Positions 4,635-35,674 of a DNA stretch of 38,684 nt are shown one piece after another. This stretch comes from Bacteroidaceae bacterium (GTDB lineage Bacteria > Bacteroidota > Bacteroidia > Bacteroidales > Bacteroidaceae). The notes below the pieces were generated by a model that was not told where the DNA came from, did no database searches, and saw only the letters and a program-made list of their open reading frames with translations. A program made the translations under genes and the position numbers. The stretch is from the NCBI GenBank assembly GCA_016280855.1, contig JAEEHP010000140.1, positions 1 through 38,684 on the forward strand, given 5' to 3'. Each line of letters starts with the position of its first letter. Positions within the stretch are counted from its first letter, which is position 1.

Positions 4635-4683
4635 TGCGTTGAAAAGTTTATTTAGGTTTTCGTTATCGTTTTCGTTTCCGCTG

Positions 4684-4771
4684 CAAAAGTACTTCCTCTC
4701 TGATGCACCGAGGTTCACTATTCAACAAAAGAGGTCAAAAATCGATGAATTGTACGATTCTTGACCTCTTT
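4684..4771 (-). promoter_or_regulatory. Operator-promoter A, upstream of the GH128-like gene
   Basis: The -7 box TACTTTTG lies on the minus strand at 4684-4691. Half-sites, in plus-strand coordinates of their six-base core, are 4710-4715 (GAGGTT), 4731-4736 (GAGGTC) and, inverted, 4763-4768 (GACCTC). The last two form a 17-bp inverted repeat with one mismatch (4728-4744 and 4755-4771, 10-base loop). Spacings are 19, 21 and 32 bp, identical to sites B, C and D. The proximal half-site covers the -33 position, which lacks a TTTG, as expected for an activator-dependent promoter. The palindrome may also terminate transcription of the double-GH43 gene, whose stop codon lies just upstream of it in the direction of transcription. 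Confidence 0.75.
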
Positions 4772-4796
4772 GTATTTATAAATGCAGAGCTTTGTG

Positions 4797-7076
4797 TTAA
4801 TCAAAGGCTTCTTTCAGTAGGCAATACTCTTTTTCAGTGATGCGCAACACGGAACCGTGGCGCGGGGTGAAAGCCCCCGTTGTCTTGGTCTCGCGCTGCA
4901 ATTGGAACGTTCGCCAGTCATCGGTGCGGCATATCTGGTAGAAGCCTGCCTGGAAGCAGTCGTAGCCCAGGAGCCAGGTGCCGTCGGCGAGCAGGTAGGC
5001 TGTGGAACCCTCGGAAGCGATGTTGTTAGGTTGCATGCGACCGGGTACGAGCGTCCATGTGCTTTGGTCGTGAAGGTCAGTGAAGATGTACTGACGGCGC
5101 TGAAGGCCCTCTGCTCCCCAGGTATTGAAGAAAAGGTGATACATACCCTCGTCGTCCTGCACAATATCGGTGTCTATCGTTGGGTCTGGATAGTTGAAGA
5201 GGGACTGCGGTTCATCCTCTAAATCGCTGAAGTCGCTGTTAGCGTAGGCGTAGTAAACAGCATCGCGGGGGAAAGGACCGTCTTTCGGAGAATGTAGCGA
5301 AAAGTACACCATGTATTTCCCTTTCGTGGGGTCGTAGAGTGTCTGTGGTGCCCAAACAGCATCGGCTTGGGCGAAGATGGTATTGGCATACCGCTCTGGA
5401 AAATGAACCGTTTGGTGTTGCCAATGAATTAGGTCGCGTGAACGCATCATGACGATGCCACGGCACGACCATTTGCCCTGCTGCCAGTCCATGTCGGTGA
5501 GCACCATGAGGAACCAGCCGTCAGGGGTGCGCAGCAAGTGTGGGTCTCGCACACCTCCGCTGCGGCTGATGGTGTCGCTGGCGATGACTGGCCGCCCTTC
5601 GTTGAGCGGCTCAAAGTCCAGGCCGTTGCGGCTCAGGGCATAGCACACCTGTTGTCCCTCTGTCGTGTTGTTGATGAAGTAGGCGAAGAGGTAGCCGCCA
5701 TATGTATCCTCAACCTCCTGTGCTCCAATAGGATGAACTATAACCAGCAAATCCGAGGTTTCGACGTAACAGTCGTCTGTGCCGAACAAGTTCTTTCGTT
5801 TGTCGGTCCAGTTACTGCGCTCGCCCGTAACCTCCACTTTAATGCTATATTCACCGAGGGGCAGTCGTGGTGAAACGAAACGATAGCCTGTATCGGGCAC
5901 TTTACTATAGAAGTCGATTAAAGAGGAGTGAACATTGATGCCATCCTTGTCTGTGATGGTGACTTTGGCATAGCCACCATGTGGACTTGAAGTGCCAACG
6001 AGCACGACTTGTCTGCCCCTGAATGATTGGCTGACGCTTTCGCCAAGATGATTGGAACTTAAAAGCATGGGCTGCCGTAGGTGGCTGCTCGGGAAATCAT
6101 ACGGGCGACAACTGGTTGGCAACCACGTCTGCCAATACTCTGGTATTGATAGTTCTGTGCCTTCTGCCTTCAATGGGAGCCAGACGTAGGTGGCAGCAGA
6201 TGCCTGATAGGGATAGCTCCAGCGGTCACCCATATACATTGGTGTGCCGTTGGGCAGCATCAGCACGCTGGTGGTCTGAGAGTTCCATGTCAACGTTCCT
6301 TGGGGACAGAATAATCCCTGACGTGTCCATGGCCCGGCAATGTCGGTGGCCGTGAAGTAATAGTTGTCGTTTCGCTCCCAACTGGTAAGATTAGAGGTCA
6401 GCAGATAGTAGATGCCGTCTTTCTTGAACATCGCAGGCGACTCACCCATTCCCTCGACGTTGGCAACCAGCGTATCGACAGAAAGATAGTTGTCCTTCAA
6501 CCTGTAGATAGGACCGTGATGAACCAGCAGATAGCCCTTCCCGTCGTCATCTTGGAACACACCGATATCCCACTTATGGATGGGCTTGCCATTGTACTCC
6601 AGCGTACCTTTCAGCTCATAGTCGCCATTGATAGTCATGCTTGTTGCAACCACCGTATTCGGATCCATGTAACGCAAGTCATCGGCATGAGCGAACATGA
6701 CATAGTCACCTGTCTTCGGACAACGCATCACCTTGGGTCGCTCACCTACGCGGTTCGGTCCCAGCACGCCATCCTTCTGAACGGGCAGCACCACCCTTTC
6801 GAAACGCCAGTTGACCAGGTCATCGGACGAATAACAGCCAAAGCCGGGGAACGCGTTGGATGTGTCGGACTTATACTCCCCGAAGAGCCAGTAGCGCCCG
6901 CCGTCCGTCACGATACCCGCTCCGTGGGCATTGACGATATTGCCGTTCTGGTCAAACCAAGGTACACCATTGACGATTACCCCCTGATTCTCCTGAGAGA
7001 CTATTGTGTTGTTGTCGGCACGGCATTGGGAGGCGGCCATGCCGAAGGTTATCAGGCATACGAATATCTTTTTCAT
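4797..7076 (-). CDS. Secreted protein with two GH43-type beta-propeller domains
   Basis: A 759-residue protein with a signal peptide of about 20 residues (MKKIFVCLITFGMAASQCRA). The first propeller (about 30-320) carries NAHGAGIV, GERPKV, WDIGVFQDDDG and EGMGESPAMF, resembling GH43 subfamily 24/34 enzymes, some of which are exo-beta-1,3-galactanases; E212 is a candidate acid. A beta-sandwich linker (about 340-450) follows. The second propeller (about 455-750) has a more classical GH43 layout: VRDPHLL (D511), VWAPQTLYD, DTDIVQDDEG (D637) and IASEGSTAY (E689), ending TPRHGSVL. Two different GH43 domains in one chain suggest sequential trimming of one substrate. No T9SS tail is present, unlike its neighbours. 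It starts 15 bases after the upstream GH43-F5/8 stop, so the two are co-transcribed. Confidence 0.8.
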   Translation of the reverse strand: MKKIFVCLITFGMAASQCRADNNTIVSQENQGVIVNGVPWFDQNGNIVNAHGAGIVTDGGRYWLFGEYKSDTSNAFPGFGCYSSDDLVNWRFERVVLPVQKDGVLGPNRVGERPKVMRCPKTGDYVMFAHADDLRYMDPNTVVATSMTINGDYELKGTLEYNGKPIHKWDIGVFQDDDGKGYLLVHHGPIYRLKDNYLSVDTLVANVEGMGESPAMFKKDGIYYLLTSNLTSWERNDNYYFTATDIAGPWTRQGLFCPQGTLTWNSQTTSVLMLPNGTPMYMGDRWSYPYQASAATYVWLPLKAEGTELSIPEYWQTWLPTSCRPYDFPSSHLRQPMLLSSNHLGESVSQSFRGRQVVLVGTSSPHGGYAKVTITDKDGINVHSSLIDFYSKVPDTGYRFVSPRLPLGEYSIKVEVTGERSNWTDKRKNLFGTDDCYVETSDLLVIVHPIGAQEVEDTYGGYLFAYFINNTTEGQQVCYALSRNGLDFEPLNEGRPVIASDTISRSGGVRDPHLLRTPDGWFLMVLTDMDWQQGKWSCRGIVMMRSRDLIHWQHQTVHFPERYANTIFAQADAVWAPQTLYDPTKGKYMVYFSLHSPKDGPFPRDAVYYAYANSDFSDLEDEPQSLFNYPDPTIDTDIVQDDEGMYHLFFNTWGAEGLQRRQYIFTDLHDQSTWTLVPGRMQPNNIASEGSTAYLLADGTWLLGYDCFQAGFYQICRTDDWRTFQLQRETKTTGAFTPRHGSVLRITEKEYCLLKEAFD

Positions 7077-7091
7077 CTTTCCGGGTTGTGT

Positions 7092-9278
7092 TTATCGATT
7101 CATGCGTTTTGTGCTACTCATACGCCCGTCGGCATAGCACAGTTGCTCGATGTACAAGCCACAGTTGGGCGGATCCGACAGTTGCTGTCCGCTCAACGTG
7201 AAGTAACGTTTTGCCACGATGGTACCGTTTGTTGCGGGTTCTGCGCGGACAGCTTGGACGGGCGTCTCTGCGGCCTTGTCGATGAGGATGTCTATCTCGG
7301 CGAGCGAGGCGTATGTGCCTTCGATGGCGGTGAGGCGGAAGAAGCGGGCTGTGCGACGGCTGAAAGTCACTTCAGTACAATAAGGCAGCCAATCGCCCTT
7401 GGATGCCGTCTGCCACGTCTCGCCGTCTGCACTCACCTCGAAGGTGTACTTGCGGATGAGTCCGTTGGTGCTTCCGTCCATGCGCGGTGTGGCAAGGAAG
7501 CCTTTGATGGTGCGGTCACGCCCCATGTCGATGGTGATGTGGTGAGGGGCCGAGGCACCGCTGTTGCTGTACTTTGTGTGCCATTTGGTGCCGACGTTGC
7601 CGTCAATGGCGTTGGCAGCACGACCGTTCTCGCTGCTGGTCTCCTGGCTGGAGCAATCTACGAGCGTCCACCAAGTCTTGTCGGCAAAGAGGTCATCGGT
7701 GGGTGTCTCACGCCACTCGCCTGTGACGAAGTTGATGTCGAAGCGCTCGTGGTACTTAAACTCGCACGTGGTGCCGTTGAACTCAATGGGGAAAATGATG
7801 GTCTTAGATTCTGTGAGGCCCGGGTCTTGCCATCGGTCGCCCACATAGAGATAGGTCGTCTTCTTAGTTCCCTTGATCGCGAGGATGGCAGCGGCTTGAG
7901 TGTCGAAAGCTATTGAGTTGCCCACGTTCTTTAGGTCGCTCCATCCACTGCGCAGATTCGTGCTGTAGGACAGTTTGCACTGGTTGGGGTCCCAGCCTGA
8001 GCAGGCCGAGGAGAACATGAAGTAGCGCTGCCCTATCTTCACAACGGCAGGTGCTTCGCGCCCTTGCCAGGCAAAGAGTTGTGTGTGCTGCACGGCTCCG
8101 TGATAGTCGTCGCTGAGGCGGAAGAGCCCTAAGTGATGGTTCTCGTCGGTGGTGGAGATGAAATAGGCCGTGCCGTCGGTGTCCTGAAAGACGTTGCAGT
8201 CGCGGCTCTTGATGTCGAGAGGCCGCCCGCTCCACAAGAATTCGTAGGCACCGTTCACTGAGTCGCACTCGAAGCAGGCCGCTTCCGAAGCGCTGTAGTC
8301 GCCCTTCTCGTAGTGGCACCATACGACGAATTTGTCCGTCCGCGCGTTGTACATCAGCTTCGGGCGCTCTATCATGCGGCTGCTGCCCAGTTCCTTGGTG
8401 GTGACACCGTTCTGAATGATTTTCCGCTCAAACTTCCACCGCACGAGGTCGGTACTGCTATAGAGGTTCACGTCGGGGTTCCACTGCTTCGTGCGGTCCT
8501 CGCCCACCATGTACCAGATGTCGCCCACGCGGACGAAGCCTGGTGCATGCGCCTGCACCGCAGCTCCCGTGGTTGTTTTCCAGAGCTTGCCGTTCTGTAT
8601 GGTCACCCATTCCGAAGGGCGTGTGGCGAGGTACTCTCTCTCTGCCTTTTTCACGGAAGCGATGCCCTGCTCAAACGCCTCCTGCGTCGTGGCCGTGATT
8701 TGCATCTGCCAAGCCTCAGAGAGCGCAGCACGGAATGAAGCCTTCCCTTCGTAGTCGGTAGCTCTCAGCTGGTTGCGCGCCACGCTCGTCACCTTCGACA
8801 TCCGCTTGTACCACCCGAATAGGTCGGCCAAAGTCCGCATTGAGGGCAGTGCCTCGCATACCCATGCGTAGTGATCCTCGTTCTTGCTGTAGTAAGATAT
8901 AATGTTCGTACGTATCTGCTTCACCGAGTCGCGCAGGGCGAACTTCGACTTGTATGTATCTGTGTAGAGTGCGATAGCCTCGGCACGGAGCGATGTGTAA
9001 GCAGTGGTGATGGCCTCGAACTGCTTGTGCGCCGCCGTGAGCAGGCTGATGGCTTCCTGTGCCTTTGCCTCGTTGTCGGCATCGGCTACGGCTGCATCGT
9101 AAGCCGCAAAAGCAGTCAGCATCTCGTCGCGGTTGTACCATTTCTGGCGTTCTTTAGAGAGGGTGTCGGCCACACACTGCTCGTGTGCCGTCGCAAGCTG
9201 TTCTGTGACTGTATATGCGTTTGCCGTAAGACAAATAGCAACGCATAGGATGGCAAGGAGTCTTTTCGTTGAGTTCAT
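7092..9278 (-). CDS. Secreted GH43-family enzyme with F5/8-type (CBM32-like) domain
   Basis: A 728-residue protein from the ATG at 9278. The longer frame would start upstream of the promoter box at 9304-9311. A signal peptide (MNSTKRLLAILCVAICLTANA) is followed by a helical FIVAR-like region (about 25-205), a GH43 propeller (about 220-520) with AHAPGF, ERPKLMYN, SRDCNVFQDTDG (D360 region) and GREAPAVV (E408), and an F5/8 type C discoidin domain (about 535-668; DGNVGTKWHT, ITIDMG, RFFRLTAIEG). The propeller resembles GH43 subfamilies 24 and 34 (galactan or arabinan side chains). The C-terminus (YFTLSGQQLS...GLYIEQ) looks like a degenerate T9SS tail. It is first in an operon with the double-GH43 gene. 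Confidence 0.8.
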   Translation of the reverse strand: MNSTKRLLAILCVAICLTANAYTVTEQLATAHEQCVADTLSKERQKWYNRDEMLTAFAAYDAAVADADNEAKAQEAISLLTAAHKQFEAITTAYTSLRAEAIALYTDTYKSKFALRDSVKQIRTNIISYYSKNEDHYAWVCEALPSMRTLADLFGWYKRMSKVTSVARNQLRATDYEGKASFRAALSEAWQMQITATTQEAFEQGIASVKKAEREYLATRPSEWVTIQNGKLWKTTTGAAVQAHAPGFVRVGDIWYMVGEDRTKQWNPDVNLYSSTDLVRWKFERKIIQNGVTTKELGSSRMIERPKLMYNARTDKFVVWCHYEKGDYSASEAACFECDSVNGAYEFLWSGRPLDIKSRDCNVFQDTDGTAYFISTTDENHHLGLFRLSDDYHGAVQHTQLFAWQGREAPAVVKIGQRYFMFSSACSGWDPNQCKLSYSTNLRSGWSDLKNVGNSIAFDTQAAAILAIKGTKKTTYLYVGDRWQDPGLTESKTIIFPIEFNGTTCEFKYHERFDINFVTGEWRETPTDDLFADKTWWTLVDCSSQETSSENGRAANAIDGNVGTKWHTKYSNSGASAPHHITIDMGRDRTIKGFLATPRMDGSTNGLIRKYTFEVSADGETWQTASKGDWLPYCTEVTFSRRTARFFRLTAIEGTYASLAEIDILIDKAAETPVQAVRAEPATNGTIVAKRYFTLSGQQLSDPPNCGLYIEQLCYADGRMSSTKRMNR

Positions 9279-9303
9279 AAGGTCTGGTTTATGATTTGCG
9301 GTG

Positions 9304-9391
9304 CAAAGGTACCTTCTTTTTCGCGTTGCGAGGTGCAATATCCGACAAAAGAGGTCGAGAATCGTCCATTTCATCGATTCCCGACCTCTTT
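9304..9391 (-). promoter_or_regulatory. Operator-promoter B, upstream of the GH43-F5/8 gene
   Basis: The minus-strand -7 box TACCTTTG is at 9304-9311. Half-site cores, in plus-strand coordinates, are 9330-9335 (GAGGTG), 9351-9356 (GAGGTC) and, inverted, 9383-9388 (GACCTC). The 17-bp arms 9348-9364 and 9375-9391 pair with one mismatch around a 10-base loop. Spacing equals sites A, C and D exactly. The palindrome follows the small peptide gene by about 20 bases, so it could also act as its terminator. Confidence 0.75.
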
Positions 9392-9410
9392 TTCTTTCTA
9401 TGGGTACGGC

Positions 9411-9596
9411 TTACCAGGCCTCATCCCACACGTTGTAGTTGTTGACTTTCACGGCAGCATCGTCACCATTGCCTTCCTCCATCGTGCTACTATTGAGGCT
9501 GGCGGAGGTGCCGTTGAATTCGTTGGAGGCTGCCAGCATGGCTGTTGCTTGGACTCGCACAATTAACAATTGAGGTTGTATATAGAGCTTTTTCAT
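9411..9596 (-). CDS. Small peptide, MKKxY..P / WDExW family (unrecognised)
   Basis: A 61-residue peptide starting MKKLYIQPQLLIVRVQ and ending NYNVWDEAW. It has no hydrophobic signal peptide and no membrane segment. The middle is rich in Ser, Asn, Gly and acidic residues. The frame also opens at a TTG at 9605, but the ATG at 9596 matches the start of the second copy at 16359-16550, which begins MKKIYQRP and ends DWDEIW. It begins 16 bases after the stop of the secreted beta-sandwich gene, so it shares promoter C. Similar short proteins are common hypothetical proteins in Prevotella and Bacteroides, from memory and without known function. Conservation of only the two ends suggests a precursor or a docking peptide; that is inference. 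Confidence 0.7.
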   Translation of the reverse strand: MKKLYIQPQLLIVRVQATAMLAASNEFNGTSASLNSSTMEEGNGDDAAVKVNNYNVWDEAW

Positions 9597-9612
9597 AATA
9601 ATCAAGAATTTC

Positions 9613-11268
9613 TTATTTTACAAGCACCTTCTTTCCATTAACGATGTTGATACCTCTGTTCGGATTGGAGATGCGACGACCACTGAGATCAAAGCATTCA
9701 TTATTTGCGGATTTACTATTTGCGATTTCATTCACACTTGTTTCCATACCATCAATGAAGAGCTTCACTTCTGCGCCACTACTTGGTGGTATCTGGAAGT
9801 AAGCACGCATACCCTTGATGCCGCCGGAAGTGAGTTTCTTAACGATTCCGTCGGCGGTGAGGTAGGCTATGGTACCGTCGGTATCAAGTTCTTTGTTGTA
9901 GAGCTGGCCTACGAACTTGTAGTCGCCACCGCCCTGTGCGGTGCCTTCGGTAGCGGTGATATTGACATTGTCGAAGACGGGGTTCACTGCGTCAGAGTTC
10001 GGTTTTACGATGTAGGGTTGTCCGGCAACGATGGTAGAAGCATCGGTGAAGGAGTAGACATTGTCGGCGGCAGAGGAGAATTCCTTCACAGTCCAGCCTT
10101 CAGGAATGGCGGCATTGAAAGGCACACAGAACGTGTTCCACTTGTCGGCAACGAGGGTGCGGGTGAGGGTGACGTTGACGTTGTCAATAGCGGTTTGCGC
10201 GGCGGCATCCAATTCGTTGAGGTTTACCTCGCCGTTGTATGAGCCGAGTGCCTCCTTATAGGTCAGGGTGAAATCGTCTATCTCCAAATCTGGGTTTCCA
10301 GAGGTTACGGTGAAGTCAAGGCCAAGTTCCAAAGTACCAGCTGTCACAGCAGCATCGACGCTGTAGGTCCCATAACTGCCAGAAGTGACGGCCTTAGAGT
10401 TGTTGCCAGCGTAGAGTTTTACGCGGCCATTGAAATCACAGACCAGCGTGGTACTGACGGTGTAGATGCCATTGGGTAGGTTAGTGATGGTCTGATAGGC
10501 CTTGCCCGTCATCGCTTTGTCGTTCCATATTTGCCAGTGGTTATTGGGATTGCCGGCAATGGTTCCGCCACCTTTCTCACCATTGCTAGTCTTGGTCGTA
10601 TAAACGCTCGTTGTGAGCGTCCAGCCGGTAGGTGTGCCGCTGCTTCCTCCTGAATTGGCCTGGAAGTCGGCATTGGTCATCAGTGTCGTAGGATTCACAC
10701 TGACGCTTTTCAGTGTATAACGGTAACCGGTGAGCTGGTTGGGATAAGCCAGCTGGAAAAAGTAATAGGTCTTGCCTGCTTCCACAAAATAGGTACACAC
10801 GCTGGCACGTGCCTTAACCGAGGCAGCAGTGACGGTGGAGCCGTCGGATGTGGTGACGAGCACCATCTTCTGGTCGTCCATGGCCGACTCCTTGGCGGAG
10901 AAGGCGATGTAGGCGTTCTTCGAAGGAACAATCTTGAAGAAGTTGCCTCGGGTGGGAAGCGTGCCGAAGGGTGATGTCTCGGTGAAGGTGGTGACGAGCG
11001 TCGATGTGGTGCCGTCGGTTGATGGCATCTGTGTGGGGATAAGGCCACCGTTGCCCTCGTGCCACGACCAACTGGTTTGCGTGTCCTCGCTGTTGCCCAT
11101 GGTGACCTCCACACCGTCGAGGGTGATGGTGGAGCCGCTGCTGCAGCCGTCGCTGCTGGTGGCTGTCCACGTCTTGGTGGTGGAACTGCCGAAGTTCTTC
11201 ACCTCAGCCATCGTCTGCGCTGTCGTGACTACGAGTAGCGTGGCGATGAGAAGTAGTTTTTGTTTCAT
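9613..11268 (-). CDS. Secreted beta-sandwich protein with T9SS tail, possible glycan-binding
   Basis: A 551-residue protein with signal peptide MKQKLLLIATLLVVTTAQTMA. No catalytic domain is recognised. An N-terminal beta-rich domain (about 22-195) is followed by a jelly-roll module (about 198-338; NADFQ, HWQIWNDKAMTGKAYQTI, LPNGIYTV, LELGLDF, DDFTLTY). That module is also seen in the DUF4978/GH-A and GH115 proteins. Next comes a module starting LTRTLVADKWNTFCVPF (about 370-500), a diverged relative of the C-terminal module of those two enzymes. The tail FDLSGRR...GINIVNGKKVLVK is of T9SS type. It is probably a surface glycan-binding or scaffolding protein; that is inference from the shared modules. 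It heads a two-gene unit with the 61-residue peptide and has a leader of roughly 125 bases. Confidence 0.65.
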   Translation of the reverse strand: MKQKLLLIATLLVVTTAQTMAEVKNFGSSTTKTWTATSSDGCSSGSTITLDGVEVTMGNSEDTQTSWSWHEGNGGLIPTQMPSTDGTTSTLVTTFTETSPFGTLPTRGNFFKIVPSKNAYIAFSAKESAMDDQKMVLVTTSDGSTVTAASVKARASVCTYFVEAGKTYYFFQLAYPNQLTGYRYTLKSVSVNPTTLMTNADFQANSGGSSGTPTGWTLTTSVYTTKTSNGEKGGGTIAGNPNNHWQIWNDKAMTGKAYQTITNLPNGIYTVSTTLVCDFNGRVKLYAGNNSKAVTSGSYGTYSVDAAVTAGTLELGLDFTVTSGNPDLEIDDFTLTYKEALGSYNGEVNLNELDAAAQTAIDNVNVTLTRTLVADKWNTFCVPFNAAIPEGWTVKEFSSAADNVYSFTDASTIVAGQPYIVKPNSDAVNPVFDNVNITATEGTAQGGGDYKFVGQLYNKELDTDGTIAYLTADGIVKKLTSGGIKGMRAYFQIPPSSGAEVKLFIDGMETSVNEIANSKSANNECFDLSGRRISNPNRGINIVNGKKVLVK

Positions 11269-11396
11269 GTTATTGGTTTATTTGAGTATCTGAATGTGTT
11301 ACCTGAAAAACAATCTCTTTACCTTGCACGAATACATTGACCTAGAAACTAACAACTAACTAACAAAACTTTTGAGAATAATTACTTTTGACGCTG

Positions 11397-11502
11397 CAAA
11401 GGTCGTGCTTTCCAGCCTCAGAAGGGTTCACGATTGTAGCATAGAGGTCAAGGATTCGACGTTTTGTACGATTTTGCACCTATTTGTTGAATCTTTGACC
11501 TT
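11397..11502 (-). promoter_or_regulatory. Operator-promoter C, upstream of the secreted beta-sandwich gene
   Basis: A -7-like box GACCTTTG lies on the minus strand at 11397-11404, the same octamer as site D. Half-site cores, in plus-strand coordinates, are 11423-11428 (AGGGTT), 11444-11449 (GAGGTC), and inverted 11476-11481 (GCACCT) and 11497-11502 (GACCTT). Spacings are 19, 21, 32 and 21 bp. The inverted pair has no gene to activate on its own side, because it faces the 3' end of the GH115 gene, so here it should serve this promoter. Transcription would start well upstream of the ATG at 11268. Confidence 0.7.
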
Positions 11503-11506
11503 ATGC

Positions 11507-14500: not shown

Positions 14501-16315
14501 CAAGGCTTCGGCGCGTTTGCCGGCACGGGCATAGAGGAAGCTCTGCTGTGCACGCAGGTGTTTCACGTTCATCAGCCAGGCAGCGCGCACGGGGTACTCC
14601 ACCATCTCGAAGAAAGCGTCCTGCAGGCGGGCGGGAATCTGTGGTTTAAGTGCCTCCACGCGGTCGGCAATGGCCTTGTAGGCGGCCAGACGGCTGTCCA
14701 TCTCGGCCTGCGAATAGCTTACGAGGCTGATATGCTCGGGCTTACCACCGGCTGCCAGCCGGTAGTACTCACGTTTGATGGCTCCAATCTCGTCGGCCAC
14801 GTCCTCACCGAAGGTGCGTGCAGCCCAGGCGCGACTGTAACCGGCAGCATCGGCGGGTTGCCAGGCATTGATATCCCAAGCCATGTCCATACAGAACTCC
14901 AGCTCCTCCTCGGCAGGCTTAATGTCGCCCACGTTGATGACCCACAGACGCTGGACGCCCTGCTGGTATGCCCGCGAGAGCTCGTAGCTGATGAGCGAGG
15001 GTGAGATGGTGGAGAGCCAGAGGTAGTCCATCGGCGACCCCCAGTAGCTGAGGTGGTAGTAGATGCCGTTGGAGCCGCTGCGCTGCTGCTCGGCGGCGGT
15101 GGGCATTTGGCGGATGTAGCCGTGGTTGTCATCGACCCAGCAGAGAGTGACATCCTCGGGTACCTCCAGCCCGGCATTGTAGGCCTCCAGCACCTCCTTG
15201 TAGGGACAGAACATCTGCGGCACGGTTGTCGGGTCGCCAATTTTCTCGTTGATGAGGCTGCGCTGGTAGGTGATGATTTCCTTCAGCGCGGCGGCGATGT
15301 TCTCGGCACCGCTGTAGCCTTGGATGGGGCCGTCGTGCACGCCGCGCATACCAAGGGTATATATCACGTCCTGGTTCTTCGACTCTTCTACCCTTTGTGC
15401 CCAGTACTCTTGCACACGGGTCATGTTGGTTTTGTAGTTCCAACTGCTGTACGTTCCGCCCTCGTTGTACCACTCGAAGACATTGTTCCTGAGCATGGGC
15501 TCACAGTGGCTGCTGCCCAGCACGATGTCATAGCGACGAGCCACCTCGGGATTCCCGGCGTAGTACCAGAAAGCCTTGGTACACTCGTGCATGGCAGGCC
15601 AGAGGATGTTGGCACGCAGGCGCAGCAGCAGTTCGCAGATGCGGGCGTAGGTGTTAGGACCTATATCCTGGATGTCGGTGTCCATGTTCTTGGCCGCCCA
15701 GGGCTGTATGCCCCAGTCCTCGTCGTTGATGAAGATGCCGCGGAACTTGACGCTCGGCTCGCCGACGGAGAGCGTGCCATCGGTGGCATAGAGCGCCGTG
15801 CGCGGCTCGGGGGTGACATCTGCCCACCACACCCAAGGCGAGACGCCCATCAGGCGAGATAGCTCAAAGAGGCCGTAGGCCGTGCCACGCGGTGTGCTGC
15901 CTGCAATGACAAGAGCCGTCTGGATGCCGTCTTGGGGTTTGATGATAACCTGCAACGAATATGCTTCCCACTTGCCTGAGATGGCAGAGACATCCAGCTT
16001 GCCGGCAGAAATGAGGGCGTCAATGATGGTGGAACGCCCAATCGTACCAGCAATCACTGGTGTGCTACCTGCATCGCCAAGTGAAGTGACGACGTTTGGC
16101 CGCTGTCCAGTGATGATGTCGATGTCGCCGGCCACGGCATTGGCGGCGATGCCTACAACCTCGTGGTCGTTTGTGGCATCATAGACAAAAGTGGTCGTGC
16201 CGCCAGGGGTGGCGATGGGGAATGTGGCGGGTGAGCTGACGACCCGCAGCTCGTCGGCGCGGACGAGCGAAGTGGCGAGGAGTGCCACGGCGAGAAGGAG
16301 ATTTCTGAAGTTCAT
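11507..16315 (-). CDS. GH115 alpha-glucuronidase, secreted, multimodular
   Basis: A 1602-residue protein from the ATG at 16315, which gives the signal peptide MNFRNLLLAVALLATSLVRA. The frame stays open 35 codons upstream across the small peptide gene, which is rejected as start. The GH115 core (about 55-860) shows VWWADVTPEP, FINDEDWG, LWPAMHECTKAFWY, GSSHCEPML (E272 region), YTLGMRGVHDGP and WVDDNHGYIRQMP, all characteristic of this family. GH115 enzymes remove alpha-1,2-linked (4-O-methyl)glucuronic acid from xylan; some act on arabinogalactan. Three jelly-roll modules, the C-terminal module shared with the DUF4978/GH-A protein and a T9SS-type tail follow. An in-frame palindromic repeat lies just before the tail. 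It is the third gene of its unit. Confidence 0.93.
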   Translation of the reverse strand: MNFRNLLLAVALLATSLVRADELRVVSSPATFPIATPGGTTTFVYDATNDHEVVGIAANAVAGDIDIITGQRPNVVTSLGDAGSTPVIAGTIGRSTIIDALISAGKLDVSAISGKWEAYSLQVIIKPQDGIQTALVIAGSTPRGTAYGLFELSRLMGVSPWVWWADVTPEPRTALYATDGTLSVGEPSVKFRGIFINDEDWGIQPWAAKNMDTDIQDIGPNTYARICELLLRLRANILWPAMHECTKAFWYYAGNPEVARRYDIVLGSSHCEPMLRNNVFEWYNEGGTYSSWNYKTNMTRVQEYWAQRVEESKNQDVIYTLGMRGVHDGPIQGYSGAENIAAALKEIITYQRSLINEKIGDPTTVPQMFCPYKEVLEAYNAGLEVPEDVTLCWVDDNHGYIRQMPTAAEQQRSGSNGIYYHLSYWGSPMDYLWLSTISPSLISYELSRAYQQGVQRLWVINVGDIKPAEEELEFCMDMAWDINAWQPADAAGYSRAWAARTFGEDVADEIGAIKREYYRLAAGGKPEHISLVSYSQAEMDSRLAAYKAIADRVEALKPQIPARLQDAFFEMVEYPVRAAWLMNVKHLRAQQSFLYARAGKRAEALSASSEASAAYNEIQTLTTKYNTDIADGKWNGMMSWRPRGLSTFNMPSVATATDVASTESELEAENNITIPAADFTTASGISTIDGLGMQEQAVGVWPVNLTAYDASDVTTAPYAEYSVAVVKGVNIVRVRCLPTFPLNSSYDLRYAVSIDGAVPVVQSIKTTAMTSAWEPNVLRGWAGGAHCYVSDNTKEVRVRVYFLDPALVLSELVCERPADTFTAEHLVNPDFEYSAENTINSGGATVRGVPYGWQTNTVPTGNSYGINNDCQNRHGDNVCWFRGTPMPEEFKLYQRVEGLPAGTYRVECRLWAEKDLLGSVRLFANDNVQYFGKASDYVANRTEGETATFAGYEGTTTQSLKDMYVDVTIAEGETLEIGIKTSNQKSDGTRATDATGWFKCDYFRIRPYTPAVNLGSITYREPDTDMNASVSNAEFSSNTDGWTRTFSGGTYKVSTAQKGDGSVIKSGEGHLQVWNGSSVNGRVYQSLSGLPNGYYRLRAAMYNEFSGSVSLYANADKTSTVNRQNAYYDVLTEVVDGTMELGLLIATTGTTDIEMDHVTLTYLAPRFQDMQAIAVQTDGSLYPYASTSRYEAMSTAVAAASSSLADKVEASVTLLAAIRSFVESNAKAEGIGTASEQTSLLSNPDGQAADGWTLSGGFAVSSNEDMAYHTADGTAIATRFHKAWSSNTAGSLSQTVTALPAGRYLLTVGVRGDVSSIDLNGADVTYLRRNLFGCEAGWDDAAFVFTQAETADRTLTLNISGSWATLTHFRLTRLSQDLTAAPASDMDNAIIRLPRTLAAGWNALVLPFDMNAEQLHAAFGQAAEVRTLNTALTLIGNTASITFEEATSTEAGVPFVLKLPAAGSGYYVENVNVRADAPSTAVASSGTTSVTLQGTYDGASITSDFHFLSGTTLYHHADGKAAVTAQPFSAWFTLETASEVKLAANFDGIETGVEEISLTPIPSPKGEGSIYTLDGRRVSVSSAYSALPKGVYLIGNRKVAVK
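11611..11646. repeat. Palindromic repeat inserted in the GH115 coding sequence
   Basis: The element reads TCCCCTC (11611-11617), a 10-base loop, GAGGGGA (11628-11634), then TGGGGGTGAG. On the coding strand it gives the in-frame peptide LTPIPSPKGEG between the shared beta module and the T9SS tail. This peptide is a familiar translation of dispersed REP-like elements and is absent from the homologous position in the DUF4978/GH-A protein, which goes straight from DTGVEKMVNSKS to the tail. Confidence 0.7.
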
Positions 16316-16358
16316 TGTTGCATGATGTTTTGTTTGTACTTGTTGCTGCGATGTGAGA

Positions 16359-16550
16359 TCACCAAATCTCGTCCCAATCCCCTTGCCCCGTTCCCTTGAC
16401 GAACGAGGAAGGGCTGTCATCTTTGTCCCATTCCTGAGAGGTTACTCCGTCGAGACCGTTCGTATTGAGGCCTGTAGAACTGCTGAGCAATGTGGACATC
16501 GTATCCACGCTGAATACTTGAATCGCAGGTCGCTGATAGATTTTTTTCAT
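16359..16550 (-). CDS. Small peptide, second member of the MKKxY..P / WDExW family
   Basis: A 63-residue peptide starting MKKIYQRPAIQVFSVDTM and ending GQGDWDEIW. It shares with the 61-residue peptide at 9411-9596 the start (MKK, aromatic Y, P at position 8), a LxxSS-like segment near residue 21-25 and the end WDExW; the middle is not alignable. There is no signal peptide or transmembrane segment. It lies 40 bases after the DUF4978/GH-A stop and 43 bases before the GH115 start, so it is the middle gene of the unit read from promoter D. As in the other copy, the gene before it encodes a protein with a T9SS-type tail. The function is unknown. Confidence 0.7.
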   Translation of the reverse strand: MKKIYQRPAIQVFSVDTMSTLLSSSTGLNTNGLDGVTSQEWDKDDSPSSFVKGTGQGDWDEIW

Positions 16551-16590
16551 AACGCTATTGAATGATTTATGATTGTATATTTAAGGTCTG

Positions 16591-19500
16591 CTATTTGACA
16601 ATGACTTTTTTGCCTTTGAGGATATATATTCCACGGCTCGGATTTGTGACGCTGCGACCACTTAGGTCGAACCATTTTCTATTTACGGATTTACTATTTA
16701 CCATTTTCTCCACGCCGGTATCCGTGTCACTGAGATTCACAGTCAGTTTCACCTCGGCTGTTGTTTCGAGAGTGAACCATGCGCTGAAGGGCTGTGCTGT
16801 AACAGCTCCCGCACAATCGGTATGATGATAGAGGGTGGTGCCGTTGAGGAAGTGGAAGTCTGAGCTGAGGTCTTCACCGTCGTAGGTACCTTGTAGGGTG
16901 ACAGAGGTCGAGCCGTTGGAAGCAACAACCGTGGAGGGTGCATCTGTGCTGATGTTGACACCCTCTATGTAGTAATTGCTTCCTGTCGTGGGTAGTCTCA
17001 GAACGAAAGGCACACCAGCTTCGGTAGCAGTGGCCTCGTCAAAGGCGATGGTGGCTGAGCTGCCGTTCAGCGTGAGGGCAGTGTTCAGGGTGCGTACTTC
17101 TGCCTCATCGCCAAAGGCTGCCGAAATCTGTTCGGTAGTCATGTTAAACGGAAACACGATGGCGTTCCAACCAGCTGATAGTGAGCGTGGTAGGCGTACA
17201 ATGGCGTTCTCGATGTCAGCCGTGGGTGTCGCTGTGAGATCGGCACTGAGGCGCGTGAGGCGGAAGTTGGTGAGGGAGAACCATGTGCCGTTGACAGCGG
17301 CCGAGATATCGGCGGGGCCATCCTCCTCCTGTGTGAACACGACGAAGGCATCGTCCCAGGCAGGTGCTGTTCCGAAGGTAGAGAGGTTATGATAGGTGGC
17401 TGCTGCGCCGTTGAGTTGCAAGCTACGGATGTCGCCACGGGCAGCGACGGAAAGCAGGTAGCGTCCGGCTGACAGGGCTGGAAGGGTCTGTGTGACGCTG
17501 CTGGTGGAGGGACTGGATGTCCATGCTTTGTTGAAACGGGTGGGTATGGTTGTGCCGTCGGCCATGACGTATGCCATGGCATCATTGCTGTTCACATCGA
17601 AGCCCGCAATAGTCCATCCTGAAGTGGCTTCTGCATTAGGGTTGAGGAGGGTAGTCTCCGTCGGGGAAACCGACGGACACAGGGCCTTGGCGGTTCCGAC
17701 GTGTTCTGCTTGGGCATTGCTGGTTACGTAGTCGCGGATGGCCGCCCAGAGGGCAGCAGTAGCATCGGCTGCTGAGGCCGCTGTCGTAGGCCGTGATGCG
17801 GCTGCCAGAGTCTGCATGTATGCATATCTTTTGCCGGAGGCGTAGGGATAGTTGGCTTCTTCGTAGCGCGCTGCCTGACTCACTGCGGCATCGTAGGCGG
17901 CAAGGGCTTCGGTGAGAGCCGACTCGTTGCTCAACGAGAGGCGAACGCAGGTAGCTTCGCCAAGAGTAATGGACGTTGACGTATAGTTGACTGCACCCTC
18001 GCTGACCCATTGGTTGGAGGCATCGAAGTAGCCCTGTTCGACCGCTTCCACTCCGAGCGATGCGGGATAGTCGAAGGTGCCGCCACCCGTGCTCAAGAGC
18101 ACGACCTCATAGCTGCTGCGATTGATGACGATGGCCTGACTGGTGGCGTTGGCGGGCGTGTAGGCGATGCTGAGAATGCCCGTCTCGGTGGCGGTGCTGT
18201 TGCCGGCGTAGTTATAGACGTAGAGACCACTGCCCTGCTTCTTCAGGGCGATGTCCTGCGCATCGGCGTTGATGATCTTGTTGCGCTGGCGCACGAGGTT
18301 GATGTGGCTGCGCTCGGTGAGGACGTGGCCGGTATTGGCATAGAGACCATTGCCATCGACGGGGCCCATGTTGTAGTAGTCGAAAGCCTTGTCGCCCGCA
18401 AGTGCTGCCATCTGGTAGAGGGGAGCGTTGGAGTCCTTGGCATCGATTTCCATGATCATGCGATAGTTCTTGCCGTTGGTGCCGAGGTACCCGTCCATGT
18501 TGCCCTTGACCTTGGGGGCGTTGGTGCCATAGATGTCGATGCCCACGAAGTCAATGTTGGTGCCACCATTGTTGCGGCGGCTTTCGTTGGCATTGGTGCG
18601 TCCGCTGGTCATCCAGGAGATGCAGTTAAGGCGCGTCCAAGTGACGTACTTCGACTGTTTGACGGCAGCACCGACGTGGTGATACCAGTCAATAATCTCA
18701 GCATCGGTTGCGGTGTTGCCGCCATGAGTGCAGGCCTCGTTGCCTAACTGCACGCCGACCACAGTGTGTGGCGCGCCGTTGTTGGCATCCCAGAGTGCTA
18801 CGTGCTCCATCACACGTCCGAGGACGTAGGTCTCGCGATCACGCAGGTTTGTATCGCGCCAGTCGAGGGAGTATTCCCATTCGGTGCGCAGCATGTTATA
18901 TTCCGATGTACCTTCCATCGAGCAGACATAGTCGGGAGTGCGCAGCTGGCGCTGGCCATTGTAGTTCCAGAGGTATTGCACACGGCCGCCGGAGCTCCAT
19001 GAGAACCAGAGCAGCTCCATCTTCATGCCATACTTCTTGCACCAACCCAAGTATTCATCGAGGATGCGCCAGTCGAAATGATTCTTCTCAGGTTCCACCT
19101 CACTCCAGAACAAAGGCACGCTGACTGTGGAGAAGCCGTCGTCGGCAGCACGCTTGAACACGGCCTCTATCTCCGGCTCGCTCCAGCCCTCATAGCCGCG
19201 CAGCTTGTCGGGGCGTAGCTGAATTTCAGTGGCATAGTAGGGACGGCCATCCACACGTAGGACAAACTTCTCTGAACCGTTGAGTGTGAGGTCAACGTAG
19301 GAGATGGTCTGCTGGCGGGGAGTAATGGTGAACTGCGAGTTGTAGTAAGCTTCGCGGGCGGCGTTGAGGGCATCCTTCTCTGATTCATATTTCACAATTG
19401 CCAATTCATAATTGGTTTGCAGCTGGGCGAGGTATTCGGCTGCTGTGGTGATGGCTTCGTCAAAGGCCACGGCATCGGGGTATTCGTCGGCAGCTCGCTC

Positions 19501-21138
19501 TGCGCGGGCTGCTTCGACGGCTGCTGCGAAGGCGGCGATGCGGGCGCGTTCGGCTTCGCGCTCGGCCACGTAGGCAGCGTAGTCGTTCATGGCTGCATTG
19601 AGTTCTGCAATGGCTGCAATGAGCTCCTCGGCTGTAGCTTCTGTGCCGAGGACTTCTGCGTTGGCCACGGCGGTGTTGAGGGGCGCGGCGTCATAGCCCG
19701 CTTCGAGGTGGTCGAGAATGGCTTTTGCCTCGGCGATGCGCTGGTTGAGTACTTCGCGATAGCCATCGGCATCCATGCCGAGGTAGTGAAGCGTGAAGGT
19801 GTCGAAATCGACGGTCACGCCACCCGTGGTAGCGAGGTCGAGGCCCAGTTCCAGCGTGCCGTCGGTGACGATACCAGTGGTGACATAGCGCTGGGCGGTG
19901 TTAGAGGCGATAGCTGTTTTTCCGTCATTCGCATAGAGGCTGATGACACCACCGAAGCTGGTGGTGACGACCGTAGCCTCCACGTGGTACTTGCCGTTGG
20001 GCAGGCCCGTGACCGTCTGATAGGCCTTACCCGTGAGTGCACCGCTTGCCTGCCACAGCTGCCAGTGGTTCTGGTTGTCCGCGATGATGCCGCCGCCTTT
20101 CTCAACGGTCGATATTTTCGACTGTGTGCTGGCCGTGAGCGTCCAACCCGTCAGGTTGTCGTCGAAATTGGGATTTGCGAGGCGCGAGGTCTGATCGATA
20201 TAGACGTCGCCCGGGAGCATCATACAGGCAGGAGCGTAGGCACCGGTTGCATAGACAGCACTCGCAGCACCCGTGATGCCTGCTGCCACGGGGCTGATGG
20301 CCGTGAGGCTCATATTGTCGAGCCAATCGACCTTGGATTCCGGACGATAGAGCGAGAGGTATAGATCGTCGGGCAGCGTGGCGGGTGTCTGGAATACGGT
20401 GGCGAAGCTGTGCTTGGCGTGGTTGGCATTGGTGGGCGTGTGACCTTCGAGGTCAAGCAGGTCGTTGTTGGCCAGGCTTGAGCCGAGCTGTATGTGGTAG
20501 GTGATGCCGCCGTTGCCTGTGCCGCTGGATGTCCAGTAGTCGTAGGTGAGGAGGTAGGTGGTGGCGTGAGCGAGTGCATCAGCGGTTAGTTGCTGACTGA
20601 GCCATCGGCTGCCCGTGTGCAGGATGATGCTCTTGGTGCCGTCGGAACGGTAGCTGGCGTTCTCGCGCACGTTGACGTAACCCACGTCGCCGCCCCACGT
20701 AGGCGTGCCGCCGTTCCATGTTTCCCATTCAGTGGCTTTCCAGCGTCCCGAGGTCAGCTCTTCGCCTACGGTCTCAAAACTGGGGTTGCGCAGCAGTTGC
20801 TCGCCCACCTTATTATATATATAGTCTGGTGTAAGTGTTGTGGCGTAGGTGTTGTTTTCGAAGACATAGACCTTGCCGTCCTGCTGCACGAAACGAACTG
20901 AACTGTCGGCTGTCGGCGTGTAGCTGATGCTGCCGAAAGCGATAGTGACGGGCGTTGCCGCCGTGGCTTGCACTTCAAGGGTGAAGTTGTTGGTGGTCGG
21001 CACGAAGGAGGTGAGGTCGCCTATCGTCTGGCCACCGAAGTCGTTGGCGGTGGCAAACGATGGCAACACGGTCTGCGCCTTTAGCGAAGTAGTCGAGAGG
21101 AACAGACAGAGAAGCGTGAGAAATGTGTTAGCTTTCAT
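16591..21138 (-). CDS. Secreted multidomain clan GH-A hydrolase (beta-galactosidase-like, DUF4978 type)
   Basis: A 1515-residue protein from the ATG at 21138 with signal peptide MKANTFLTLLCLFLSTTSLKA. Earlier codons in frame lie across the operator and are rejected. Order: two jelly-roll modules (about 112-280 and 318-452), an alanine- and glutamate-rich helical stretch (about 460-600), a TIM-barrel domain (about 615-960), a beta domain (about 965-1080), a shorter helical repeat, a third jelly-roll module, the shared C-terminal module and a T9SS tail. The barrel has GWSEPEIEAVFKRAADDGF, VPLFWSEVEPE, VGVQLGNEA (E801, putative acid/base) and MIMEIDAKDS (E897, putative nucleophile), as in GH35/GH42-like enzymes followed by DUF4978. 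Galactose-containing glycan is the likely substrate, not proven. It is the first gene after promoter D. Confidence 0.75.
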   Translation of the reverse strand: MKANTFLTLLCLFLSTTSLKAQTVLPSFATANDFGGQTIGDLTSFVPTTNNFTLEVQATAATPVTIAFGSISYTPTADSSVRFVQQDGKVYVFENNTYATTLTPDYIYNKVGEQLLRNPSFETVGEELTSGRWKATEWETWNGGTPTWGGDVGYVNVRENASYRSDGTKSIILHTGSRWLSQQLTADALAHATTYLLTYDYWTSSGTGNGGITYHIQLGSSLANNDLLDLEGHTPTNANHAKHSFATVFQTPATLPDDLYLSLYRPESKVDWLDNMSLTAISPVAAGITGAASAVYATGAYAPACMMLPGDVYIDQTSRLANPNFDDNLTGWTLTASTQSKISTVEKGGGIIADNQNHWQLWQASGALTGKAYQTVTGLPNGKYHVEATVVTTSFGGVISLYANDGKTAIASNTAQRYVTTGIVTDGTLELGLDLATTGGVTVDFDTFTLHYLGMDADGYREVLNQRIAEAKAILDHLEAGYDAAPLNTAVANAEVLGTEATAEELIAAIAELNAAMNDYAAYVAEREAERARIAAFAAAVEAARAERAADEYPDAVAFDEAITTAAEYLAQLQTNYELAIVKYESEKDALNAAREAYYNSQFTITPRQQTISYVDLTLNGSEKFVLRVDGRPYYATEIQLRPDKLRGYEGWSEPEIEAVFKRAADDGFSTVSVPLFWSEVEPEKNHFDWRILDEYLGWCKKYGMKMELLWFSWSSGGRVQYLWNYNGQRQLRTPDYVCSMEGTSEYNMLRTEWEYSLDWRDTNLRDRETYVLGRVMEHVALWDANNGAPHTVVGVQLGNEACTHGGNTATDAEIIDWYHHVGAAVKQSKYVTWTRLNCISWMTSGRTNANESRRNNGGTNIDFVGIDIYGTNAPKVKGNMDGYLGTNGKNYRMIMEIDAKDSNAPLYQMAALAGDKAFDYYNMGPVDGNGLYANTGHVLTERSHINLVRQRNKIINADAQDIALKKQGSGLYVYNYAGNSTATETGILSIAYTPANATSQAIVINRSSYEVVLLSTGGGTFDYPASLGVEAVEQGYFDASNQWVSEGAVNYTSTSITLGEATCVRLSLSNESALTEALAAYDAAVSQAARYEEANYPYASGKRYAYMQTLAAASRPTTAASAADATAALWAAIRDYVTSNAQAEHVGTAKALCPSVSPTETTLLNPNAEATSGWTIAGFDVNSNDAMAYVMADGTTIPTRFNKAWTSSPSTSSVTQTLPALSAGRYLLSVAARGDIRSLQLNGAAATYHNLSTFGTAPAWDDAFVVFTQEEDGPADISAAVNGTWFSLTNFRLTRLSADLTATPTADIENAIVRLPRSLSAGWNAIVFPFNMTTEQISAAFGDEAEVRTLNTALTLNGSSATIAFDEATATEAGVPFVLRLPTTGSNYYIEGVNISTDAPSTVVASNGSTSVTLQGTYDGEDLSSDFHFLNGTTLYHHTDCAGAVTAQPFSAWFTLETTAEVKLTVNLSDTDTGVEKMVNSKSVNRKWFDLSGRSVTNPSRGIYILKGKKVIVK

Positions 21139-21179
21139 TGTGTGAGTAAATGAGTTTTGTTTTGTCGTTTTTCGTGTTG

Positions 21180-21285
21180 CAAAGGTCGTTATTGCGCGTA
21201 TGGATGTGGAGCAGGATTGTAAAAACAGGGTCAAAAGGTGTCCAAATGCACATTTTTTCACCTCTTTTGTCGGATTCTTTACCTT
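21180..21285. promoter_or_regulatory. Operator D, shared by the enzyme unit and its divergent regulator
   Basis: For the minus-strand enzyme unit, a -7-like box GACCTTTG is at 21180-21187 and half-sites are at 21206-21211 (weak, GTGGAG) and 21227-21232 (AGGGTC). In the plus direction, half-sites are at 21259-21264 (CACCTC) and 21280-21285 (TACCTT). Spacings of 19, 21, 32 and 21 bp equal site C exactly, and the first three equal A and B. The outer plus-facing half-site lies just upstream of the regulator -7 box. Confidence 0.7.
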
Positions 21286-21291: not shown

Positions 21292-21299
21292 TACCTTTG
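21292..21299 (+). promoter_or_regulatory. Promoter -7 box of the regulator gene
   Basis: TACCTTTG fits the Bacteroidetes TAnnTTTG box and lies 20 bases before the chosen ATG. A TTTG 26 bases further upstream may be the -33 element. An operator half-site (21280-21285) falls inside the spacer, which suggests autorepression. Confidence 0.6.
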
Positions 21300-27125: not shown

Positions 27126-27199
27126 ATATCTTTTTCGTTTATCCGTTTATTAGGGGCGTAAATCAGGCTGAATTTGCCATTTTATGCCCATTTTGAGGA

Positions 27200-27207
27200 C
27201 AAATATA
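27200..27207 (-). promoter_or_regulatory. Likely promoter -7 box of the AlbA-type gene
   Basis: TATATTTG on the minus strand fits TAnnTTTG and lies 75 bases before the ATG at 27125. No convincing -33 TTTG is seen. Confidence 0.4.
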
Positions 27208-27357
27208 AAGAAAAATCTCCCTTATATTAGGAACGTGCGCGAGAAAAAAGGTTAAATGAGGGTGATTTTGTTCATTTTTGCTCATGAAACGGCACAAATC
27301 GGCATATAAAAGCTCTCAAAACCGCTCAAACAGTAGCTAAAGGAACGGCAAGAACAC
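27208..27357. other. Intergenic stretch at the edge of the phage segment
   Basis: Between the AlbA-type promoter and the terminator at 27358 there is AT-rich sequence without an ORF of note. It is the likely boundary between the mobile segment and the neighbouring accessory genes. I see no tRNA, integrase or obvious attachment repeat. Confidence 0.4.
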
Positions 27358-27399
27358 AAAAAAACCGCGTTTCCATCATTTTGTCTGAAGGAAACGCGG
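27358..27399 (-). terminator. Intrinsic terminator after the 74-residue phage ORF
   Basis: A perfect 10-bp stem, CCGCGTTTCC (27365-27374) and GGAAACGCGG (27390-27399), is followed on the minus strand by seven T (27358-27364). It closes the minus-strand phage segment. Confidence 0.85.
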
Positions 27400-27472
27400 G
27401 AAAGGGTCTCTGTATATTTCTGAGATGAACGACATGAGGTAGCAAGAGGGAGCAGTGGGCGTTATCGTCTTA

Positions 27473-27697
27473 TCACTTTGTTCCATCGCTTTTTTTCAGG
27501 AGTAACTCTATCATTCGTGAGTTAGACTCAACGTAATCGAGAATGACCTCACACAATGCTGTCAGAAGGTTAATTTTCTCCTCTACCCCAATGTCTGAAT
27601 TGGAGAGCATTCTGACTTGCTCACGGAGTTCACTGACTCCGCTTTTCTGCGGCTCCCTATCGGGAGCACAGAAGCCTGGTGCTTTGTTCTTTTTCAT
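27473..27697 (-). CDS. Small hypothetical protein at the phage segment edge
   Basis: A 74-residue protein starting MKKNKAPGFCAPDREPQKSG, then mostly helical (VRMLSNSDIGVEEKINLLTALCEVILDYVES). No family is recognised. It is the last ORF before a strong terminator and is separated from the terminase gene by about 460 bases. A short polar N-terminus followed by one long amphipathic helix pair would suit a DNA-binding or accessory role, but this is a guess. Confidence 0.5.
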   Translation of the reverse strand: MKKNKAPGFCAPDREPQKSGVSELREQVRMLSNSDIGVEEKINLLTALCEVILDYVESNSRMIELLLKKSDGTK

Positions 27698-27797
27698 AGT
27701 GGTAAATAATTAAGTTGCGAACTCAGGTGATATTGATTTGATTAAGTAATCGTGATTACTTTTCAAGCGTTCGAGTTACTGTCTGTTTCGTTCCAAA

Positions 27798-31923: not shown

Positions 31924-31963
31924 AATATATTATTTTGTTAGCGAGAGTTTTATATAATACAAA

Positions 31964-35654: not shown

Positions 35655-35674
35655 GGAAATACAAATAGTGAATC

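Follow-up and report, generated by a model that had tools for sequence, protein, structure and literature searches.

A conserved mirror-symmetric half-site array marks the predicted local regulon of a kinase-less propeller/AraC regulator in a Bacteroidaceae genome

Hybrid two-component systems (HTCSs) are a major class of polysaccharide-use regulators in Bacteroides. In the available text of one survey, all HTCSs considered are stated to carry a histidine kinase and a receiver, and their DNA motifs are designed as direct repeats whose sites are separated by 21 bp on average (Ravcheev et al. 2013, PMC3878776); in several HTCSs that have been studied, the receiver holds the AraC domain back until it is phosphorylated (available text of PMC11253607). 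Here, we describe four arrays of AraC-type half-sites on a 38,684-bp contig of a Bacteroidaceae bacterium (GenBank assembly GCA_016280855.1, contig JAEEHP010000140.1; C184 in our set, hereafter the window), which belongs to a draft genome of 3.43 Mb in 287 contigs. Six genes lie in a row on its minus strand (1272-21138), and a regulator gene (21320-24070) is oriented opposite to them. This regulator and its arrays share with Bacteroides HTCSs a propeller and Y_Y_Y sensor, a C-terminal AraC domain, a direct repeat of about 21 bp, and neighboring polysaccharide-enzyme targets. They differ in the absence of histidine kinase and receiver, and in a mirrored second pair or single inverted site added to the direct repeat, which is the only motif form given in the available text of the survey (PMC3878776). 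These two features, the regulator without kinase and receiver and the mirrored extension, are what is new beside the known HTCS direct pair; among the open-license PubMed Central papers listed, no title or abstract opening dealt with kinase-less propeller/AraC regulators or mirrored AraC half-sites. We consider it likely that the four arrays are operators of this predicted membrane regulator, which would activate the genes behind them from the 21-bp direct pair, with the proximal half-site replacing the -33 promoter element.

Other described regulators share parts of this arrangement. At araBAD/araC, AraC uses 21-bp direct half-sites by the promoter it activates, and further sites in the divergent region act on its own promoter; AraC is soluble and loops over a long distance. 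In the window, by contrast, the second pair is mirrored and only 10-12 bp away, and the regulator is a predicted membrane protein. SusR-like regulators (SusR, BT3705) are likewise membrane proteins with a periplasmic sensor, a cytoplasmic DNA-binding domain, and no kinase, although the membrane span in our case is a prediction. They differ in motif spacing, predicted at 67 or 77 bp for SusR versus 21 bp here, and in a DNA-binding domain that, according to the available text of the survey, resembles no other, whereas ours is AraC-type (PMC3878776). BT4673 has a propeller sensor of the same fold, and its two Protein Data Bank (PDB) entries are titled "putative one component system" (3ott) and "hybrid two-component system" (3va6); both contain the sensor domain only, to which the comparison is confined. 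Judging from the former title, the idea of a one-component form of such regulators is not new. A regulator that retains sensor, AraC domain, and 21-bp pair while dispensing with kinase and receiver makes sensing without phosphorylation testable, and the mirrored array, together with a locked promoter distance, provides a precise motif by which such regulons can be predicted in genomes that lack annotation.

The four arrays follow a shared geometry (Table 1). Read on the minus strand, site 1 ends 19 bp upstream of a -7 box in every unit (27 bp from the last G of the box), and site 2 is placed 21 bp further upstream. The box itself conforms to TAnnTTTG in the first two units, whereas units 3 and 4 have GACCTTTG. 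Inverted site 3 follows at an identical offset in units 1, 2, and 4, with a 10-bp spacer to site 2; in unit 3 it is shifted 1 bp outward (11-bp spacer). Units 3 and 4 have a second inverted half-site, site 4, 44 bp from site 2 in both. Counted from the G of TTTG, site 1 (-39 to -27) and site 4 (-104 to -92) are mirror images around one center, as are sites 2 and 3. The array is a mirror-symmetric quad, composed of two 21-bp direct pairs set back to back. At unit 4, the regulator-side -7 box ends 15 bp after the pair that faces it. An initial annotation of this DNA had noted the steps of 19 and 21 bp, both of which recur in all four units. Its description of the geometry as base-exact applies to three units and fails in unit 3, where the third half-site lies 1 bp beyond the distance claimed and the fourth, correctly assigned to two units, follows after 20 rather than 21 bp. 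Three of its four "enzyme units" can be called such; the 551-aa protein behind unit 3 matches no Pfam or NCBIfam family. It missed the mirror-image arrangement, and its observation overall is thus partly confirmed.

In promoters of Bacteroides fragilis, 19-21 bp separate the -33 and -7 elements. The position of the proximal half-site coincides with that of the -33 TTTG in these promoters, for which a -7 element of TAnnTTTG and a TTTG near -33 are described in the available text of PMC7366714.

Chance does not readily account for the arrays. We rebuilt the half-site matrix with one unit left out at a time and scored it over both strands of the window (77,120 positions). The left-out units scored 49.6 (unit 1), 39.1 (unit 2), 41.2 and 44.9 (unit 3, in its two orientations), and 34.8 (unit 4, regulator side), all above the 99.99th percentile of 27.5-29.1. 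Unit 4 exceeded it by its regulator side only, its enzyme side not being among the seven best positions listed. Patterns were also run over the whole draft genome. Because the direct-pair pattern was derived from sites in the window, its matches there are no evidence, whereas the absence of equal matches elsewhere is. With at most one mismatch, the pattern occurs at three places genome-wide, all within the window; two mismatches add unit 3 and one place elsewhere, and three mismatches add 17 places, all outside the window. A control pattern gave four matches in all. The three-site pattern, allowing up to three mismatches, matched only units 1 and 2, and its control nothing. The sole two-mismatch pair match outside the window is at G000:C221:46601-46632. 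A comparison with the near-identical genome G081, in which 1 of 292 operator positions differs versus 1 of 793 other intergenic positions, is uninformative as to selection on the operators.

Recurrence of the array beside orthologs of the regulator provides a further line of evidence. The regulator was found at E ≤ 1e-100 in two of 139 genomes of the genus (its own and G081) and at E ≤ 1e-150 in three of 399 genomes of the family; the nearest named record, 98% identical, is from an uncultured Prevotellaceae bacterium, isolate RUG192. We ran the matrix, built from the window only, on the loci of 80 relatives (3.25 million positions, both strands) and pooled the four best matches per locus. Four of these loci encode close orthologs: L024 (98% identity; the same contig as in near-identical G081), L070 (52%; cut by the contig end), L025 (44%), and L026 (44%). 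The ten best matches among the 80 loci all fall in these four, with scores of 26.9-51.8, and the next-best locus, L041, reaches 23.9. In L070, L026, and L025, the best matches lie just upstream of the ortholog, and in L024 they are copies of units 3 and 4. The genes beside the array differ, being DUF4978 and GH43 genes in L025, GH127 and GH43 genes in L026, and a GH28 gene in L070. Since different enzymes stand beside a retained array, the array, judging from these loci, travels with the regulator and not with any one enzyme. The GH28 gene of L070 (8143-9704, with F5/8 pieces) is divergent from the ortholog and is split over two overlapping frames, which points either to a break in the gene or to an error in sequencing.

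Two distant genomes were searched in full with up to two mismatches allowed and gave the same picture, in that the best pair match adjoins the ortholog in both. In G148 it is the only match (control, 0), and in G188 it has one mismatch versus two for three other matches (control, 2). These results bear on the alternative in which the neighboring regulator is a bystander and the arrays are those of a different AraC-type regulator or HTCS encoded in the genome. Further propeller/AraC proteins are indeed encoded in the genome, and related regulators appear to use similar half-sites, with ATTnTTnnCCC-like pairs in L040, L041, L046, and L066. However, among the 80 loci the array stands out only with close orthologs, in three further genomes and beside different enzymes, and close matches in the window's own genome are confined to the contig carrying the regulator gene. 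We therefore regard a bystander role as very unlikely. The same findings support the interpretation of the initial annotation overall. Its proposals of a local regulon and of 21320-24070 as the likely binder agree with the confinement of close matches to the window and with the return of the array at orthologs; its reading of the half-sites as AraC-type pairs gains from that return in three other genomes, and its placement of the proximal half-site at -33 is upheld in the relatives' loci. The 21-bp spacing, which it explained by analogy with AraC, does fit an AraC-type pair, but is more than an analogy given the HTCS motif design in the available text of the survey (PMC3878776).

Distances to the promoter distinguish the two sides of the array. 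From the end of the enzyme-side half-site to the G of TTTG, we measured 27 bp in L025, 28 bp in L026, and 27 bp in L070; for L026 and L070, as for units 3 and 4, a relaxed -7 box was accepted. The regulator-side distance to the -7 box ranges from 15 bp (unit 4) through 20 bp (L025) and 37 bp (L070) to 51 bp (L026). Only the enzyme promoter is thus held at a locked distance, which is what an activator in contact with RNA polymerase at that promoter would require. Direct pairs situated 26-29 bp from a -7 box were also found in L040, L046, and L049, and by eye in L041 and L066. This activation geometry is probably general.

The mirrored half-sites were evaluated with matrices built only from the enzyme-side direct sites of other operators, with P values from 4000 letter shuffles and the best of five positions taken. 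Inverted site 3 was found in all seven operators, at offsets of 0, 0, -1, 0, 0, -2, and -1 (P ≤ 0.0035), and site 4 in five, always at offset 0 (P ≤ 0.00925). With the window matrix, the mirrored sites of L026 gave P 0.00675 and a score reached by none of 4000 shuffles. An alternative reading is that only the direct pair is bound by the regulator, in keeping with the published HTCS motifs, and that sites 3 and 4 are the own pair of a second promoter in the divergent region, copied together with that region into unit 3. Four of the five operators with site 4 (unit 4, L025, L026, and L070) do lie between divergent genes, and divergent AraC-family promoters with one pair each are known, as in xylA/xylF of Escherichia coli. 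Nonetheless, the mirror spacing is constant within 2 bp in all seven operators, even though the distance to the regulator-side -7 box varies between 15 and 51 bp; in addition, the quad is complete in unit 3, which has no divergent gene, and only site 3 is retained in units 1 and 2. This reading is a genuine possibility, if one that we doubt on balance.

Our preferred reading of the arrays as operators of the neighboring regulator has a number of observations against it. The two enzyme-side sites of unit 4 are weak (CAATCCTGCTCCA and CACCTTTTGACCC), and the strong pair there faces the regulator gene. The enzyme-side site 1 of L025 is 1 bp out of place, the exact position scoring -13.5, and the window-matrix test of the mirrored sites in that locus gives modest values (P 0.0085 and 0.0315). 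A looser array scan with the window matrix found none in any of 20 loci of kinase-less relatives from other clades, so kinase-less regulators as a whole are not characterized by the array. In the genome itself, 18 weaker pair matches (two or three mismatches) lie outside the window versus four matches for the control, which leaves room for weaker targets elsewhere or for sites of sister regulators. The draft state of the genome (84.9% complete) is a further weakness, the role of the mirrored pair is conjectural, and site 4 is absent from units 1 and 2. Finally, sites 2 and 3 of these two units fold into near-perfect hairpins on the transcribed strand (-23.6 and -27.9 kcal/mol; z -6.8 and -6.2).

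These hairpins raise the possibility that in units 1 and 2 inverted site 3 completes an intrinsic terminator of the upstream gene as its second arm, with only the direct pair serving as an operator there; the missing site 4 would accord with this. Each of the two hairpins follows the 3' end of a same-strand gene. In each unit, the half-site arms have a single mismatch, which reads as G-U in that strand's RNA, and where unit 1 has an A-T pair, unit 2 has G-C. As to a T-tract right after the stem, the sequence CTCTTTTGT has its Ts largely inside the stem. A simple terminator scan listed neither hairpin, but is uninformative, as its loop limit of 8 excludes their 10-base loop. On the other hand, inverted sites occupy the same place in unit 3 as well as in three divergent regions that contain no gene end (unit 4, L025, and L026), and none of these four forms a strong hairpin; such sites are also present in the divergent region of L070. 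Termination alone therefore does not explain the sites, and we judge the terminator reading unlikely, if far from negligible. The hairpins of units 1 and 2 may have a double role, acting also as terminators.

Outside the close clade, the mirrored extension was not general in the loci covered. Among the 76 remaining loci, we found six distinct -7 boxes with a 21-bp direct pair, and inverted matches at -23, the site 3 offset, amounted to 3 to 8 of 13 positions (mean 4.83 versus 2.83-5.5 at other offsets), giving no general signal. One of these six belongs to L040, which its frame length marks as kinase-less, and shows an inverted copy at a different offset, -13 (10 of 13). Three kinase-bearing relatives were chosen by hand. 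A single inverted site at exactly -23 occurs in L041 (about 9770-9850; P 0.00075) and in L066 (upstream of 7214; P 0.0095), and none was found at that offset in L046 (P 1.0); for site 4, the corresponding values are P 0.86 (L041), 0.049 (L066), and 1.0 (L046). A wider, three-site form of HTCS operator is conceivable from these loci. An unbiased scan for mirror quads of any kind in the regions preceding 20 regulators proved too insensitive and was not used (window 14; shuffles 9-14 over all rows).

In the regulator, Pfam identifies propeller repeats, Y_Y_Y, and an AraC-type helix-turn-helix (HTH) domain (HTH_18, E 3e-18), and neither Pfam nor the structure model revealed a histidine kinase (HisKA, HATPase_c) or CheY-like receiver. 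In the model (P0001 numbering, 941 residues; mean predicted local distance difference test score 84), the propellers are followed by a long helix at 764-804, a low-confidence linker, and the HTH domain from 825; a membrane span is predicted from sequence and model together. The best structural matches of the sensor model are the HTCS sensors BT4663, BT4673, and BT3049, and an HTCS chain in the PDB, 12aw, is a match for the AraC domain. Of the 120 homologs listed, the best 41 show neither a kinase nor a receiver, and most from P0042 onward do.

We placed the AraC domains of the relatives' loci in a tree of 75 rows, four rows of other lengths having been dropped beforehand; L070 and L097 yielded no such domain. 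Kinase presence was labeled by frame length, resulting in 25 kinase-less rows, and a Pfam spot check found no kinase in the four rows checked and a kinase in L041. The window regulator, L024, L025, and L026 form a clade (support 100/99). The tree requires six label changes, three of them forced by well-supported branches, or perhaps two, as one row labeled kinase-less (L064) is probably a split HTCS whose match spans 3,954 bp. These changes speak against a single loss of the kinase. Given the kinase-less rows elsewhere in the tree, kinase loss seems recurrent, having occurred more than once in this sample. Kinase-less propeller/AraC regulators are scattered in the tree and are also encoded by isolates, for example Xylanibacter ruminicola D31d (L037).

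Taken together, we regard the conserved, operator-like array of a putative local regulon as real, and a local activator regulon, perhaps for arabinogalactan, as likely. In the mechanism we envisage, a plant-glycan fragment, perhaps of type II arabinogalactan, would bind the propeller outside the cell, and the membrane helix would relay the change inward. Two AraC domains could then dock on sites 1 and 2 and contact RNA polymerase, while a second dimer would sit on mirrored sites 3 and 4, its back to that of the first. Next to the regulator gene, where the region is divergent, this second dimer might tie enzyme induction to control of the regulator's own promoter; at units 1-3, it might instead steady the activating dimer. 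Much more speculatively, and with the expectation that it will probably not hold in full, we propose a kinase-free HTCS descendant that acts as a membrane-anchored dimer of dimers on a mirror-symmetric operator. One pair would fire the enzyme promoter from the locked 27-bp distance and the mirrored pair would set the dose of the regulator, such that the symmetry of the operator would do part of the work of kinase and receiver. The regulon would grow by the placement of operator copies, whole or three-quarters, before genes.

The enzymes behind the arrays suggest a substrate. Among the solved proteins closest to the GH43 protein encoded at 7092-9278 are an exo-beta-1,3-galactanase and a galactan 1,3-beta-galactosidase, and the DUF4978 protein is weakly similar to solved GH35 beta-galactosidases. 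Combined with the GH115 gene, these similarities suggest type II arabinogalactan as the target glycan.

Table 1. Half-site arrays, promoter boxes, and associated genes in the window
Feature	Positions	Strand	Sequence	Remark
Unit 1 -7 box	4684-4691	-	TACTTTTG	
Unit 1 site 1	4711-4723	-	GAATAGTGAACCT	ends 19 bp upstream of -7 box
Unit 1 site 2	4732-4744	-	CGATTTTTGACCT	21 bp from site 1
Unit 1 site 3, inverted	4755-4767	+	CGATTCTTGACCT	strong hairpin with site 2
Unit 2 -7 box	9304-9311	-	TACCTTTG	
Unit 2 site 1	9331-9343	-	GGATATTGCACCT	
Unit 2 site 2	9352-9364	-	CGATTCTCGACCT	
Unit 2 site 3, inverted	9375-9387	+	CGATTCCCGACCT	strong hairpin with site 2
Unit 3 -7 box	11397-11404	-	GACCTTTG	
Unit 3 site 1	11424-11436	-	CAATCGTGAACCC	
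Unit 3 site 2	11445-11457	-	GAATCCTTGACCT	
Unit 3 site 3, inverted	11469-11481	+	CGATTTTGCACCT	1 bp further than in other units
Unit 3 site 4, inverted	11489-11501	+	GAATCTTTGACCT	
Unit 4 enzyme-side -7 box	21180-21187	-	GACCTTTG	
Unit 4 enzyme-side site 1	21207-21219	-	CAATCCTGCTCCA	weak
Unit 4 enzyme-side site 2	21228-21240	-	CACCTTTTGACCC	weak
Unit 4 site 3	21251-21263	+	CATTTTTTCACCT	upstream half of strong regulator-facing pair
Unit 4 site 4	21272-21284	+	GGATTCTTTACCT	downstream half of that pair, directly before the regulator's -7 box
Regulator-side -7 box	21292-21299	+	TACCTTTG	G 15 bp after site 4
Gene behind unit 1	1272-4634	-		glycosyl hydrolase catalytic core, PF11790 (Pfam)
Second gene behind unit 2	4797-7076	-		GH43; 15-bp gap to the gene at 7092-9278
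First gene behind unit 2	7092-9278	-		GH43 and F5/8 type C
Gene behind unit 3	9613-11268	-		551 aa
GH115 gene	11507-16420	-		next after the DUF4978 gene on the same strand, 170-bp gap
First gene behind unit 4	16591-21138	-		DUF4978 protein
Regulator	21320-24070	+		916 aa; beta-propeller (Reg_prop), Y_Y_Y, one long helix (predicted membrane anchor), AraC-type HTH

The GH115 gene stands apart in the alignment of the window to contig C63 of near-identical G081. It holds 363 of the 430 substitutions in the window, corresponding to a divergence of 7.4% versus 0.06-1.4% in the six other genes, with the densest part at 14-16 kb; the divergent stretch looks like a recombined tract.

Beyond the regulator, the window contains a phage-like block (25728-37261) flanked by two Schlafen/AlbA_2 proteins. 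It encodes a weak match to a terminase large subunit (28157-29794), a head maturation protease (34412-35572), and several proteins that belong to no family. A tandem repeat within the block (29786-29843) consists of 7.2 copies of the 8-bp unit AGAGTTCA, and a 42-bp repeat at 35916-36019 lies within the second Schlafen-type gene.

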